Source: an uncultured Nitrosomonadales bacterium (GTDB lineage Bacteria > Pseudomonadota > Gammaproteobacteria > Burkholderiales > Gallionellaceae). From it: DNA of 37,466 nt. The notes under the pieces were generated by a model, which was not told the origin of the DNA, did not search any database, and was given only the letters and a program-made list of their open reading frames with translations. The position numbers were made by a program, and so were the translations under genes. Numbering within the stretch: position 1 is the stretch's first letter; each line of letters opens with the position of its first letter. Where the stretch lies: positions 1 to 37,466 of the forward strand of contig CAIOKY010000079.1 of the NCBI GenBank assembly GCA_903858965.1, written 5' to 3'. Shown one piece after another: positions 2,077-18,805 of this stretch.

Positions 2077-3611
2077 TGTATCTGAATCAAGCTGTGTCCA
2101 GTCATTTCAGCCGGTTGAGATAAACCCATCATGGCCAGCAGACTGGGCGCGAGATCTCGCAACGCACCGTGATCGGCCAGTTTGGCTTTGCGCCCGATAT
2201 ACAGAAAAGGCACGGGGTTCAATGTGTGCGCAGTGTGCGCTTGGTGCGTGACGCGGTCTATCATTTGTTCGGCGTTGCCGTGATCGGCGGTGATGATGAC
2301 CTCGCCGCCGATGGATTGCATTGCTTTAACGACACGACCGATACAGATATCCAGCGCTTCGATGGCTTTTGTAGCGGCTTCCATATTGCCGCTGTGTCCG
2401 ACCATATCGCCATTGGCATAATTGCAGATGATGGCTTGGTATTGGCGGCTCAGGATCGCGGCTTCAAGCTTATCCGTCACTTCGAACGCACTCATTTCCG
2501 GCTTGAGATCGTAGGTGGCCACTTTGGGCGACGGCACCAATATACGCTCTTCACCGGGGTAAGGTTGTTCCCTTCCGCCATTGAAGAAGTAAGTGACATG
2601 CGCATATTTTTCTGTTTCTGCGATGCGCAATTGCTTCAGGCCCAGGCTGGAAATATATTCGCCGAAGCCATTGTGAATTGGTTCCTGGGTATAAGCGCAA
2701 GGCAGATCAAAATCTTCGCCATAACGGCTTAGCGTGACGAAACCAGCCAGTTTTGGAAAGTGCGCACGGGTAAATCCGTTAAATGCTTTGTCTGTCAAAG
2801 CGCGCGTGATTTCGCGCGCGCGGTCAGCGCGGAAATTCATGAACACCACCACATCGCCATCGCACATGGTAGTGGCTTGGGCACCGGAGGGAACAATGCT
2901 GGTGGCCTTGACGAACTCGTCAGACTCTCCGCGTAAGTATGCCAGTTCCAATCCGCTTAATGCATCTACCGCAGAAAATTCGGCTTTGCCCTGGGTGAGC
3001 AATTCATAGGCTGGCTGCACGCGTTCCCAGCGATTGTCCCTGTCCATCGCATAAAAGCGGCCAATGATGCTGGCAATTTGCCCGACACCCAATGCAACAC
3101 ATTTTTCCTGCAACAGTCGCAATGATTGTGCTGCACTTTTGGGTGGGGTATCTCGACCGTCAAGGAAAGCATGCAGATAGATTTTTTTCAAGCCGTTGCG
3201 TGCTGCCATTTCCAGCATGGCGAAGATATGATTTTCATGGCTGTGTACGCCACCTGGCGAGAGCAGGCCCATGATGTGTAATGAGCTGCCGTTTTGTTTG
3301 GCTGTGGCAACGGCATTGCCCAATGCCGGATTGGTGTAGAAATTACCATCTTCGATTTCTACGTCGACACGGCTCAAATCCTGATACACCACGCGTCCTG
3401 CGCCGATGTTGAGATGCCCGACTTCGGAGTTGCCCATCTGCAGGGAAGGCAAGCCGACGAATTTTTCAGATGCGTTGATCAGGGTGTGCGGAAAATCGCG
3501 CCAAAGTTTGTCCCAATTCGGTTTGCGGGCAGCAGCAATAGCGTTGTAGTCAGCATCCTCGCGGTAGCCGAAACCGTCAAGTATGAGCAGTAAAACAGGG
3601 GTGATGTTCAT
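2073..3611 (-). CDS. gpmI: 2,3-bisphosphoglycerate-independent phosphoglycerate mutase
   Basis: MNITPVLLLILDGFGYREDADYNAIAAARKPNWDKL...MGNSEVGHLNIGAGRVVYQDL...HAFLDGRDTPPKSA...ADHGNAEQM. The ORF track start at 3782 is over-extended; ATG at 3611 matches the family N-terminus. Confidence 0.96.
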   Translation of the reverse strand: MNITPVLLLILDGFGYREDADYNAIAAARKPNWDKLWRDFPHTLINASEKFVGLPSLQMGNSEVGHLNIGAGRVVYQDLSRVDVEIEDGNFYTNPALGNAVATAKQNGSSLHIMGLLSPGGVHSHENHIFAMLEMAARNGLKKIYLHAFLDGRDTPPKSAAQSLRLLQEKCVALGVGQIASIIGRFYAMDRDNRWERVQPAYELLTQGKAEFSAVDALSGLELAYLRGESDEFVKATSIVPSGAQATTMCDGDVVVFMNFRADRAREITRALTDKAFNGFTRAHFPKLAGFVTLSRYGEDFDLPCAYTQEPIHNGFGEYISSLGLKQLRIAETEKYAHVTYFFNGGREQPYPGEERILVPSPKVATYDLKPEMSAFEVTDKLEAAILSRQYQAIICNYANGDMVGHSGNMEAATKAIEALDICIGRVVKAMQSIGGEVIITADHGNAEQMIDRVTHQAHTAHTLNPVPFLYIGRKAKLADHGALRDLAPSLLAMMGLSQPAEMTGHSLIQIQ

Positions 3612-15559: not shown

Positions 15560-15769
15560 TTAGCCACCGCCAACAGCGACGACGACTTCCAGCTTGTCGC
15601 CATCCGCCAGTTGCTGGGTGGAAAAAGAACTGCGTGGCACAATCTCACCGTTGCGTTCGAGAGCAATGCGCTTGCCAACCAAACCCAGTTCTTCGATAAG
15701 TGTTGCAACACTAGTGAAATCGGGAAGCTGGCGAGATGCGCCGTTAATGCTGATGGTAATCACTTTCAT
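15560..15769 (-). CDS. thiS: Sulfur carrier protein ThiS
   Basis: Ubiquitin-like MKVITISINGASRQLPDFTSVATLIEELGLVGKRIALERNGEIVPRSSFSTQQLADGDKLEVVVAVGGG with the C-terminal Gly-Gly; adjacent to thiG. Confidence 0.95.
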   Translation of the reverse strand: MKVITISINGASRQLPDFTSVATLIEELGLVGKRIALERNGEIVPRSSFSTQQLADGDKLEVVVAVGGG

Positions 15770-15806
15770 TCTGTTGTTCGCTTACGGTAAAATGCGATGC
15801 TATCAC

Positions 15807-15843
15807 GCGGGTGTAGTTCAATGGTAGAACGGCAGCTTCCCAA
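15807..15843 (+). pseudogene. 5'-half fragment of tRNA-Gly(CCC); left repeat (attL-like)
   Basis: GCGGGTGTAGTTCAATGGTAGAACGGCAGCTTCCCAA, identical to nt 1-37 of the intact tRNA at 17494; identity stops at the end of the anticodon loop. Confidence 0.9.
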
Positions 15844-15965
15844 TTCGTTCGCCGTGGTCATTCACCACCCCAGTCCGTCCGCCTCTCCGCCGTTCCCTGA
15901 CAATTTCAATCAGATTTAGCCATATCGGTCTTCATTCCGGTCTCGCCCCATACCGATACCGTTCT

Positions 15966-15985
15966 GGACAGTGGTTTTACTGTCC
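15966..15985 (+). repeat. Perfect inverted repeat (hairpin) inside the element leader
   Basis: GGACAGT-GGTTTT-ACTGTCC, 7-bp perfect stem, 6-nt loop. Confidence 0.6.
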
Positions 15986-16453
15986 CAAACTATCTCCGAA
16001 CTGCTTCTTCACCCCGATAAATCGACAAAATCAGACCCGACGCAGCTAACGGTTTTCTTTTTTATTATATTAAGACAGGAAACAGTTATCTCCGGTGCCT
16101 TCATGTCCAAGCCGATTCGGGTTCCGGTAGTACGGAGATCAACCTAGGTGTTGCCAGATCGAGCCAGACGCCGTTGCCCTGTTGCCGAATAGGTAGGACA
16201 GTGCGCCACAGTGGGGAAGGTTTTGCCATCGAAACGCCTACGTCGAAGACCAGAGCGAAAATCCGCTGGAATTACCCCCGAGTTGCCATGAAAGTCTTAA
16301 CAGTTCGGGGAACAGTCGCTTAACAGCTTGGTTTGCCACTGCCTTTCACGGTACGTCGGCAGCTTCAATAGATTCGGATACGGTTTTTAAGATGTTGTCA
16401 TCTCAGGAGTGAGACGGGATGGTGTGCGTGAGTGGTCAAGAAAGGCATCGCAC

Positions 16454-16669
16454 ATGCAAACGCTGTCGGCAGAACAACAACAAAATCTCGTTGAGATCAT
16501 CAGCGAGGAATTTGGTACTGGCCTGACGTGTGATGAGTTTGCGGATGTGTTGCTTGGCTTACTTGAAGATATTTCCGGCTTCGAGACCATCTCGCCTGCC
16601 AAGGCAAATCAACTCATCAACCAACTCTGGAGAAAATACCATGCTCAAGAATCTGCTGAAAAAGAATGA
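16454..16669 (+). CDS. Small hypothetical protein, element ORF1
   Basis: MQTLSAEQQQNLVEIISEEFGTGLTCDEFADVLLGLLEDISGFETISPAKANQLINQLWRKYHAQESAEKE; ATG at 16454 preferred over the track's GTG at 16409; well-formed acidic helical protein. Confidence 0.6.
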   Translation: MQTLSAEQQQNLVEIISEEFGTGLTCDEFADVLLGLLEDISGFETISPAKANQLINQLWRKYHAQESAEKE

Positions 16670-16913
16670 TGCAACCAACGCAACGACAGGGGCCGATACC
16701 AAGGCAGAACCAGTCAAGAAAATCGACCTGACCAAGCCGCTTATCAAGGATGCCATTGCCCAAGGCAAGGCCATCATCAAGGATGGCAAATCCAAGGCCG
16801 ATGCTGCTCGTGCAATCTACGCAGTAATCAAAGACGAACCCAAGGAAGTCATCGTGGCTGCCTTCGTGGAAGGTGCAACGCTATCCTATCCAATAAGCGG
16901 CGTGGAGACCTGA
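16641..16913 (+). CDS. Small hypothetical protein, element ORF2 (possibly C-terminally truncated)
   Basis: MLKNLLKKNDATNATTGADTKAEPVKKIDLTKPLIKDAIAQGKAIIKDGKSKADAARAIYAVIKDEPKEVIVAAFVEGATLSYPISGVET; overlaps ORF1 by 29 nt; GGAG ~8 nt upstream of ATG. Confidence 0.6.
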   Translation: MLKNLLKKNDATNATTGADTKAEPVKKIDLTKPLIKDAIAQGKAIIKDGKSKADAARAIYAVIKDEPKEVIVAAFVEGATLSYPISGVET

Positions 16914-16945
16914 CATGGAAATATGTTAATGGAACTCTTATCAAT

Positions 16946-17278
16946 ATGACTTGGGATGCGAATTTGAAGAGAATTGGAGGGGATCCTGAGGCTATAAAGC
17001 ACGCAGATCGATTGACTATCATAAAAGGCAGCCCAATAAAAATACGTGGTTCTTTGACGCTCGATCACAGCAATACATTGCTTACAAGTGGCGAATGGTA
17101 CTTAAAGCTGCCAAAAAAGACACTAATTTCAGGCAGTGGAGATTGTAATCTTGGGTTGCGTGACTATTTGCTTGTTGAGGTAACTCCACCGAACGTTCAG
17201 GGCGAATCGGTATTCAACGCGACTTTCAATTGTAATGAGGGGAATGGCAGTATTACGGCGATCAGTTTGTCTAAGTGA
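16946..17278 (+). CDS. Hypothetical protein, element ORF3 (may be a 3' gene fragment)
   Basis: 110 aa MTWDANLKRIGGDPEAIKHADRLTIIKGSPIKIRGSLTLDHSN...; frame stays open upstream of the ATG through TWKYVNGTLIN, suggesting a lost 5' end. Confidence 0.45.
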   Translation: MTWDANLKRIGGDPEAIKHADRLTIIKGSPIKIRGSLTLDHSNTLLTSGEWYLKLPKKTLISGSGDCNLGLRDYLLVEVTPPNVQGESVFNATFNCNEGNGSITAISLSK

Positions 17279-17454
17279 GCTAAATTTAGGACGCTCTGTG
17301 TGGTCGGATTGTTGTAGCGATAGTTGCAGAAACTAAATGAGCAGCGAACCCAAAACTCGTACCACCTAAGTAACAAACTCAATCCTCAAACAGTATTTTC
17401 ACCGTAGAGGTCGCACTTTCTAACCACTGTAGGAAACCGTGGAAGACTGTCAAA

Positions 17455-17483
17455 TTGAATATTAATGACAACCCACGTAAAAT
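17455..17483 (+). promoter_or_regulatory. Element-borne sigma70-like promoter for the intact tRNA-Gly
   Basis: TTGAAT - 17 nt - TAAAAT, ending 10 nt before the tRNA 5' end at 17494. Confidence 0.6.
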
Positions 17484-17493
17484 CTAAATCGTC

Positions 17494-17567
17494 GCGGGTG
17501 TAGTTCAATGGTAGAACGGCAGCTTCCCAAGCTGCATACGAGGGTTCGATCCCCTTCACCCGCTCCA
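17494..17567 (+). tRNA. tRNA-Gly(CCC)
   Basis: Cloverleaf: GCGGGTG/CACCCGC acceptor, GTTC/GAAC D stem, GCAGC-TTCCCAA-GCTGC anticodon arm (CCC), GAGGG-TTCGATC-CCCTT T arm, encoded CCA. Confidence 0.95.
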
Positions 17568-17569
17568 GC

Positions 17570-18805
17570 TTATTTTGGCGAAACATCCGGCACCTTGGCA
17601 TGTTGATCGTGCATCACGATGCGCGATACAAACAGGATCGCCAGGACGTTTCCCGTTATCGCAATATAGCCGACCAATTCATAATCGACGATCTGCCCCG
17701 CGCTGTTTTGCGTGATGATGAATCCGGCCAGCGTTGTAGCCAAGCCCATTGCCAATGACTGTACCGTGGCGTGAAGCGACATGAATGTACCGCGCAGTTT
17801 TGGTTGTGCCGCGGAAGTGATGATGGCCATCGCCGGAATCATGCGCCCCGAAACCAGCACGAAAAATACCGTAGTGCAGATCAACCATAGCCATAGCGGC
17901 GCAGGCCCGATGTGGGTCACCACAAACAGCGGCAGCAATGCGGCAGCGGCGGTCAACCGATAGACTTTGATCTTGCCATGCAGGTCGGCCCAATGGCCGA
18001 TCTGCCGCGCGGTGAACAGCGTTGCCATACCTCCTGCAAGATAAATGAACGGGATGTCGTGTTGCGTGATGCCGACATTGCCCACCGCATAGATGGTGAT
18101 GTAGGGAATCACCGTGAAGCCGGAAAAGATAATCAGTGCGGAAAACAGCAATGCACGCAGGTGATTGGGATCGCGCAGCACGGCGAACATTTCCACGAAC
18201 GGATGGGCGCGCTTCTGGACGCTGATGTGATGATGCAGTTCCGGCAGGATGCGTATGCCGATCACGATGAACAGTGCAGTCAGTATTGCGATCAGAATGA
18301 ATGGCGCACGCCATTGGAAAATCGTGGCCAGCCACAGGGACAGCGGCACACCGGCAACTGTGGACAAAGAAAACGCCGCCGACACGATGCCGCCAGCCTT
18401 GGCGCGGCGCGAAAAAGGGATCACATCGCCGACTATAGTTTGTACCATCGCCCCCATCACGCCGCCGAATGCGCCTGCCATGCCGCGCGCAATCAACAGC
18501 GTGACATACCCGGGAGCCAGTCCGCAGGCCAGTGTCGCCAGCCCGAACAGTCCAAACATCGTCAACAGCATGCGTTTGCGCTCGAACCGGTCGATGAATG
18601 TCGCGGCCAGCAATCCGGAAACAGCGGCGCTGAAACTGTATGCTGCCACCAGCAAGCCGAATTCATGGGTATGGATGCCGAATGCTTTCATCAAGATAGG
18701 CCCGAGCGGCATCATGATCATGAAGTCGAGGATGTGGCTGAACTGGATGCCGGCAAGGGTGAGCAGCAAATATCGTTCGCGTTGCGGGGTGAGAGCTGGT
18801 TGCAC
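17570..18805 (-). CDS. MFS transporter
   Basis: 411 aa, 12-TM-like; FIDRFERKRMLLTMFGLFGLATLACGLAPGYVTLLIARGMAGAFGGVMGAM typical of drug/sugar MFS. Confidence 0.9.
   Translation of the reverse strand: MQPALTPQRERYLLLTLAGIQFSHILDFMIMMPLGPILMKAFGIHTHEFGLLVAAYSFSAAVSGLLAATFIDRFERKRMLLTMFGLFGLATLACGLAPGYVTLLIARGMAGAFGGVMGAMVQTIVGDVIPFSRRAKAGGIVSAAFSLSTVAGVPLSLWLATIFQWRAPFILIAILTALFIVIGIRILPELHHHISVQKRAHPFVEMFAVLRDPNHLRALLFSALIIFSGFTVIPYITIYAVGNVGITQHDIPFIYLAGGMATLFTARQIGHWADLHGKIKVYRLTAAAALLPLFVVTHIGPAPLWLWLICTTVFFVLVSGRMIPAMAIITSAAQPKLRGTFMSLHATVQSLAMGLATTLAGFIITQNSAGQIVDYELVGYIAITGNVLAILFVSRIVMHDQHAKVPDVSPK

Follow-up and report, generated by a model that had tools for sequence, protein, structure and literature searches.

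Here, we report that 1.7 kb of foreign DNA is inserted into the middle of a tRNA-Gly(CCC) gene in the window, i.e., the 37,466-nt stretch of DNA that was analysed. The insert, 15844–17530, is in our judgment very probably a small integrase-less integrative element that entered through site-specific insertion by a tyrosine recombinase, restored the 5' half of the gene, and has decayed.

Half of a tRNA gene is duplicated at the insert boundaries

Two copies of a 38-nt direct repeat, 15806–15843 and 17493–17530, are 100% identical and lie 1687 bp apart. The repeat consists of nt 1–37 of tRNA-Gly(CCC) and one preceding C; the first-pass annotation had claimed the duplication of nt 1–37 (15807–15843 and 17494–17530), which is confirmed here with one extra C on the 5' side. 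The identity stops at nt 37, where the left copy terminates on the final base of the anticodon loop (TTCCCAA), again as had been claimed. A chance origin of the repeat is excluded by its exact match over the full length. An exact search of the whole source assembly gives two occurrences of the 37-mer; with two mismatches allowed, just 4 of the 399 genomes searched from the order, the source genome included, have it twice. Please note that the junctions are known from assembled sequence, the source genome being a 160-contig assembly with 95% completeness.

The two copies differ in kind, a stub first and a complete tRNA second, as the first reading of the sequence had it. The left copy (15807–15843, forward strand), the displaced 5' half, matches the tRNA at 37 of 37 positions and forms the left junction of the insert. 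A search of the 300 bp next to thiS gave no tRNA 3' half (best score 16, against a shuffled maximum of 23), and the left copy is therefore a 5'-half stub. The stub region has an Rfam tRNA score of 20.6 bits, under the gathering score of 29, in contrast to 70.5 bits for the intact tRNA-Gly(CCC) at 17494–17567 (forward strand), which is composed of a 5' half from the insert and a 3' half from the host. The latter is the single tRNA that ARAGORN detects in the window, and only one tRNA-Gly(CCC) gene was found in the assembled genome of the source bacterium.

The site is empty in relatives

Unoccupied sites with the order thiS, tRNA-Gly, MFS, which the first-pass annotation had proposed to look for, are found in relatives. 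Many of the same genus (examples are L022, L023, L025, L036, L037, L039, and L042) have thiG-thiS, ~37 bp, and an intact tRNA-Gly(CCC), followed by an MFS gene in most relatives and then by dnaE in several. The window has the same left flank, thiS (15560–15769, reverse strand; Pfam ThiS, 3.2e-14), and an MFS transporter gene as the right flank (17570–18805, reverse strand; Pfam MFS_1, 4.7e-56). Its stub begins 37 bp from thiS, which is the ancestral tRNA position in the empty-site relatives, and its tRNA and MFS gene are separated by 2 bp, a spacing also seen at empty sites, L022 among them; the stub joined to the host 3' half thus gives the layout of the relatives. The interior (15844–17493), except for the last ~40 bases beside the tRNA, is matched in 0 of 60 relatives, which rules out a conserved chromosomal interior. 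An old tandem tRNA array, the other outcome that would have spoken against insertion, was rejected on the 5'-half-only stubs; the window stub is half a tRNA, and unoccupied sites exist.

Over its 37 nt the stub carries 0 changes in the window, against 5 in L027, 6 in L029, and 10 in L026, lineages from which the window differs at 44–60% of thiG fourfold sites. The -10 element TAAAAT of the old host tRNA promoter (15788–15793, forward strand), which aligns with the -10 of the empty-site relatives, is still intact. The unchanged stub and the intact old -10 box argue that the insertion is recent, as judged by comparison with sister lineages and not within the same species; gene conversion would be a less likely source of the stub identity.

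The same tRNA gene is occupied elsewhere

Inserts between thiS and the tRNA are present in other loci of the same genus, i.e., L026 (3.8 kb), L027 (2.4 kb), L029, L031 (4.1 kb), L044 (1.5 kb), L049 (1.5 kb), and L087 (1.2 kb), in family f15 (L054, L082, and L084, each about 1.26 kb), and, at the thiS-linked tRNA, in family f46 (L080, genome G297). The right ends of the L080 and L029 inserts are beyond contig breaks. The cargoes at different occupied sites are mutually unrelated. A 5'-half-only stub with no 3' half sits at the ancestral position in L026, L027, L029, L054, L082, L084, and L080, and no recognisable stub is seen in the occupied loci L031, L044, L049, and L087. The stub of L080 is a perfect nt 1–37, after which comes a left-end sequence different from that of the window, and family f46 provides a second contrast of empty (L104) and occupied (L080) sites. 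This tRNA-Gly(CCC) site is a hotspot common to several genera and families, not a one-off.

Other rearrangements of the gene were also observed. In L102 (6809–7039), a 5'-half stub and ~120 bp of AT-rich DNA precede a complete tRNA-Gly(CCC), the anticodon stem of which is different. In L078 (4734–5035) and L079 (4811–5121), from two families, a short insert that starts with a perfect hairpin (arms ACAACCGGACGTCC..GGACGTTCACAGGACGTCCGGTT-like in L078) splits tRNA-Gly(CCC) in the T loop, after nt 56; downstream of the insert come the 3' remnant and, after it, a second tRNA, which is complete and has a different promoter.

The promoter of the tRNA is exchanged

The sequence upstream of the regenerated tRNA in the window is unlike the empty-site promoter. 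A similar sequence, TTGARTAATG..GGCAACCCACGTARAAT, precedes the tRNA in L026, L027, L031, L032, L033, L043, and L044, and a looser version precedes it in L087 and f15. It is legible as a -35/-10 pair with 17-bp spacing, and in the window we annotate it as a candidate element-borne promoter, TTGAAT-17-TAAAAT, at the right end of the insert (17455–17483, forward strand). A consensus promoter scan of this right end gave matches not above the shuffled number, and the old host -10, identified by inspection, was missed by the consensus scan. As consensus matches are not enriched, the case for an element promoter is drawn from conservation across the other occupied sites. On this ground, the insert carried in the promoter of the tRNA, or at any rate provides it at present, in place of that of the host.

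The history of the locus bears on this reading. The thiG tree requires at least five changes of promoter type, and well-supported branches make four of these unavoidable. On this tree the window belongs to a clade whose members are mostly occupied, as are nearly all of its nearest kin; the inner branches of the clade have weak support. An argument against our preferred reading is that the promoter type at the right end could have been passed down within this clade and not have arrived with the insert. In L032 and L033, the promoter-tRNA unit lies below ordinary chromosomal genes with no thiS nearby. Degenerate inverted copies of tRNA-Gly(CCC), beside thiS and reading into it, are observed in L107 (about 3270–3381, reverse strand), L108 (101–210), and L109 (4492–4604); they share the occupied-site promoter type, hinting at an inverted duplication or an inversion at the locus. 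Judging by both the L032/L033 context and the inverted copies, a single insertion does not account for all that has happened to the unit in this genus.

Cargo of the insert and its links to integrases

The left part of the insert (15844–16453, forward strand) contains no recognised gene; its largest ORF has no Pfam match, and no Rfam match was obtained. Then follow, all on the forward strand, OrfA (71 aa, 16454–16669), OrfB (90 aa, 16641–16913), and OrfC (110 aa, 16946–17278). No recombinase domain was detected by Pfam among the interior ORFs, in agreement with the first-pass annotation. The small ORFs had also been said to match no nameable family, and this is true of OrfA, as it is of OrfC (no Pfam, PHROG, NCBIfam, or PADLOC family), but OrfA and OrfB are the first and second genes of a conserved pair with relatives. 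Their homologues (40–59% identical for OrfA) occur in eight other loci, adjacent in most, with OrfA upstream of OrfB. Homology of OrfB ends at residue 82, and the conserved C-terminal YWYNCKRR-like motif of the homologues is missing, which is a sign of decay. A gene adjoining orfA in some other genomes has no remnant in the window. Homologue searches found no relatives of OrfC or of the left ~600 bp, and no PADLOC match points to a defence function of OrfA–C. OrfB has no relatives in plasmids (E ≤ 1) or in IMG/VR, and a plasmid or phage origin of OrfB was rejected accordingly.

A tyrosine integrase lies a few kb from OrfA-OrfB homologues, on the same contig, in L071 (same contig as G307:C110) and in L072, the two integrases being 62% identical to each other. 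In the L080 element of G297, a tyrosine integrase gene is cut at the contig end; its product, of which the C-terminal part is present, is 55–56% identical over that part to the integrases of L071, L072, and L095. The element also encodes a 1053-aa Herpes_ori_bp protein that is 32% identical over about 930 aa to the L070 protein adjoining OrfA-OrfB. The window insert is tied to an integrase-bearing element type by these indirect links, in which OrfA-OrfB is associated with an integrase, a helicase, or a tRNA-Gly stub, and the helicase with an integrase and a stub; no single element in which OrfA-OrfB, helicase, integrase, and tRNA-Gly stub stand together was found. Large Herpes_ori_bp-like helicases are located at L080:931–4092 and L070:3990–6821, on integrase- or OrfA-OrfB-linked elements, and are possibly replication proteins of the parent element.

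At tRNA-Gly(CCC) no intact integrase was found, and the integrases of L071, L072, and L095 are not at this gene. Relatives of the L080-type integrase are absent at 1e-40 from the source genome (its own tyrosine recombinases are at best distant relatives), at 1e-55 from 350 genomes of the class, and from IMG/VR; phages and plasmids yield only 25–31% identity. The N-terminal half of the G297 integrase has no close relative elsewhere in the G297 assembly, and no convincing direct repeats bound the L094 and L095 elements.

Proposed mechanism and alternative explanations

We propose that a tyrosine recombinase acting from elsewhere, either one whose gene the insert no longer has or one provided by a different element, would have integrated a circular form carrying a new promoter and tRNA-Gly(CCC) nt 1–37. 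The joint of the circle would read promoter, nt 1–37, and TTCGTTCGCC. A crossover in the anticodon loop would have joined the circle to the host gene, leaving the host promoter and host nt 1–37 as the stub beside thiS, and the promoter and nt 1–37 of the element would have been joined to host nt 38–74, by which the gene was rebuilt. The cargo of OrfA, truncated OrfB, and OrfC is presumably what decay has left of an element type with relatives that carry a tyrosine integrase gene and, in some cases, also one for a Herpes_ori_bp-like helicase. The first-pass annotation had placed an element of reversed polarity upstream of the gene, regenerating its 5' half, and had left open whether it is a remnant or is trans-mobilised; our data support the polarity and also the status in its either/or form, and the element would be non-autonomous in both cases.

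We regard it as unlikely that the insert belongs to a family of minimal integrase-less cassettes at the thiS-linked tRNA-Gly(CCC), which would have variable cargo of 1–4 kb and a conserved right end of promoter and tRNA 5' half, be moved in trans by a tyrosine recombinase, and renew the promoter at each insertion. Decay of a duplicated tRNA is improbable. It would require a second complete promoter-bearing tRNA-Gly upstream of MFS and a later loss of the 3' half from the thiS-side copy, and the genus has in fact duplicated the promoter-tRNA unit, given the whole, degenerate, same-promoter copies that stand inverted beside thiS in L107, L108, and L109; L078 and L079 likewise hold two tRNA copies within about 240 bp. 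However, the 5' half alone remains in seven other loci, the two unrelated fresh stubs (window and L080) stop at the same base, nt 37, random decay would scatter changes as is seen in L109, and most empty-site relatives have a single tRNA, located at the stub position.

Homologous recombination with the cargo, promoter, tRNA, and MFS DNA of a relative, completed by an illegitimate second joint inside the stub, we consider highly improbable. Donors exist, since the window clade is nearly all occupied with the same promoter type, and the tRNA and MFS offer homology on the right side, but the left joint must then have hit by chance the last anticodon-loop base, the same place as in L080, and the stubs of the donors are degenerate whereas that of the window is perfect. 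That the 38-bp repeat created an assembly chimera is scarcely credible: the flanks are collinear with relatives, thiG-thiS on the left and MFS-dnaE on the right, and the right junction of promoter, tRNA, and MFS recurs in the independent assemblies L026, L027, L031, and L110, even though the assembly has 160 contigs and contigs of relatives do end at the tRNA (L029/L030, L080/L081, L099/L100). Site-specific insertion of an integrative element is the reading that we carry forward.

Comparison with known systems

Islander lists 3919 islands in total, 159 with a 5' tDNA fragment versus 3760 with a 3' one (PMC4383910), and the anticodon loop is one usual crossover subsite of tRNA-targeting tyrosine integrases (PMC4383910, PMC8371274). 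In archaea, pTN3-like integrases use the tRNA 5' half, and the recombinant tRNA is read from the element promoter (PMC8371274). The 5'-half polarity is thus uncommon but already documented, in the Islander minority and in the archaeal pTN3-like elements, and is not new. The window insert resembles the 5'-fragment islands in that the fragment is upstream, the intact tDNA downstream in the same orientation, and the crossover in the anticodon loop (subsite A); it differs in lacking an integrase and in its length of 1687 bp, against the required 2–200 kb. Islander filters would reject it for these two reasons, no integrase and <2 kb (PMC4383910), and such inserts escape standard island finders on the same account. 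An unoccupied site in relatives, a criterion that we added beyond the Islander filters, is present for the window insert. The pTN3-like elements share the duplicated 5' half and a tRNA read from the element promoter (predicted in the window), yet they are archaeal with an integrase adjoining the tRNA, and the window insert is bacterial and integrase-less.

A CIME is a remnant of an ICE or IME that kept attL and attR and lost its integration and transfer genes (PMC5704250). The window insert has 37-nt identity at both ends (putative attL/attR-like sites) and is similar in having no integrase or transfer gene; it differs in that no tandem partner is seen and a conjugative or mobilisable parent is putative. 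As regards a possible ICE or IME ancestry, integrases are encoded near OrfA-OrfB homologues in other genomes, and general annotation identified no relaxase or conjugation gene. Tycheposons also place cargo beside a tRNA gene, but they are 4–200 kb with a tyrosine recombinase (PMC10872708), and the window insert has neither. The group II introns in tRNA-Gly of L028 and L089 use a site at nt 39/40, unlike the window boundary at nt 37, and the window insert has no Rfam intron match and no reverse transcriptase among its ORFs by Pfam.

We consider the insert a clean case of the rarer island polarity, seemingly recent and of very small size, with both half of the tRNA and its promoter replaced. The many empty-site relatives and at least six other stub loci make it possible to trace the target base, the exchange of promoters, and how such elements decay. 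With its inserts and tRNA-carrying introns, the locus lends itself to studying how mobile elements compensate for the harm they do to a tRNA gene.

Group II introns in the same tRNA gene

Nine genomes from the family have a group II intron (~2.6–2.7 kb) placed exactly between tRNA-Gly(CCC) nt 39 and 40: L028 (3327–6036), L089 (7527–10213), and L134–L140 (G892, G902, G943, G933, G929, G925, and G936). At every one of the nine loci, the host exons together make up an intact tRNA. Rfam detects ribozyme domains at both intron ends in L028 and L089; in L028, the intron also has a gene for a reverse transcriptase that includes maturase and HNH domains. A full-length tRNA-Gly(CCC) gene lies within each of the nine introns; eight of these copies are the same at all 74 nt, whereas the intron DNA is about 86–90% identical over the compared stretches. 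In the literature searched, the coverage of which is incomplete, no description was found of group II introns carrying a tRNA inside bacterial tRNA genes, and these introns are probably more novel than the insert. The plain thiS-linked tRNA of L142 (4594–4667), L143 (4447–4520), and L144 (4717–4790), where no intron was detected, has the intron-borne sequence, indicating that either the gene was captured by the intron or the host gene was replaced by the intron copy.
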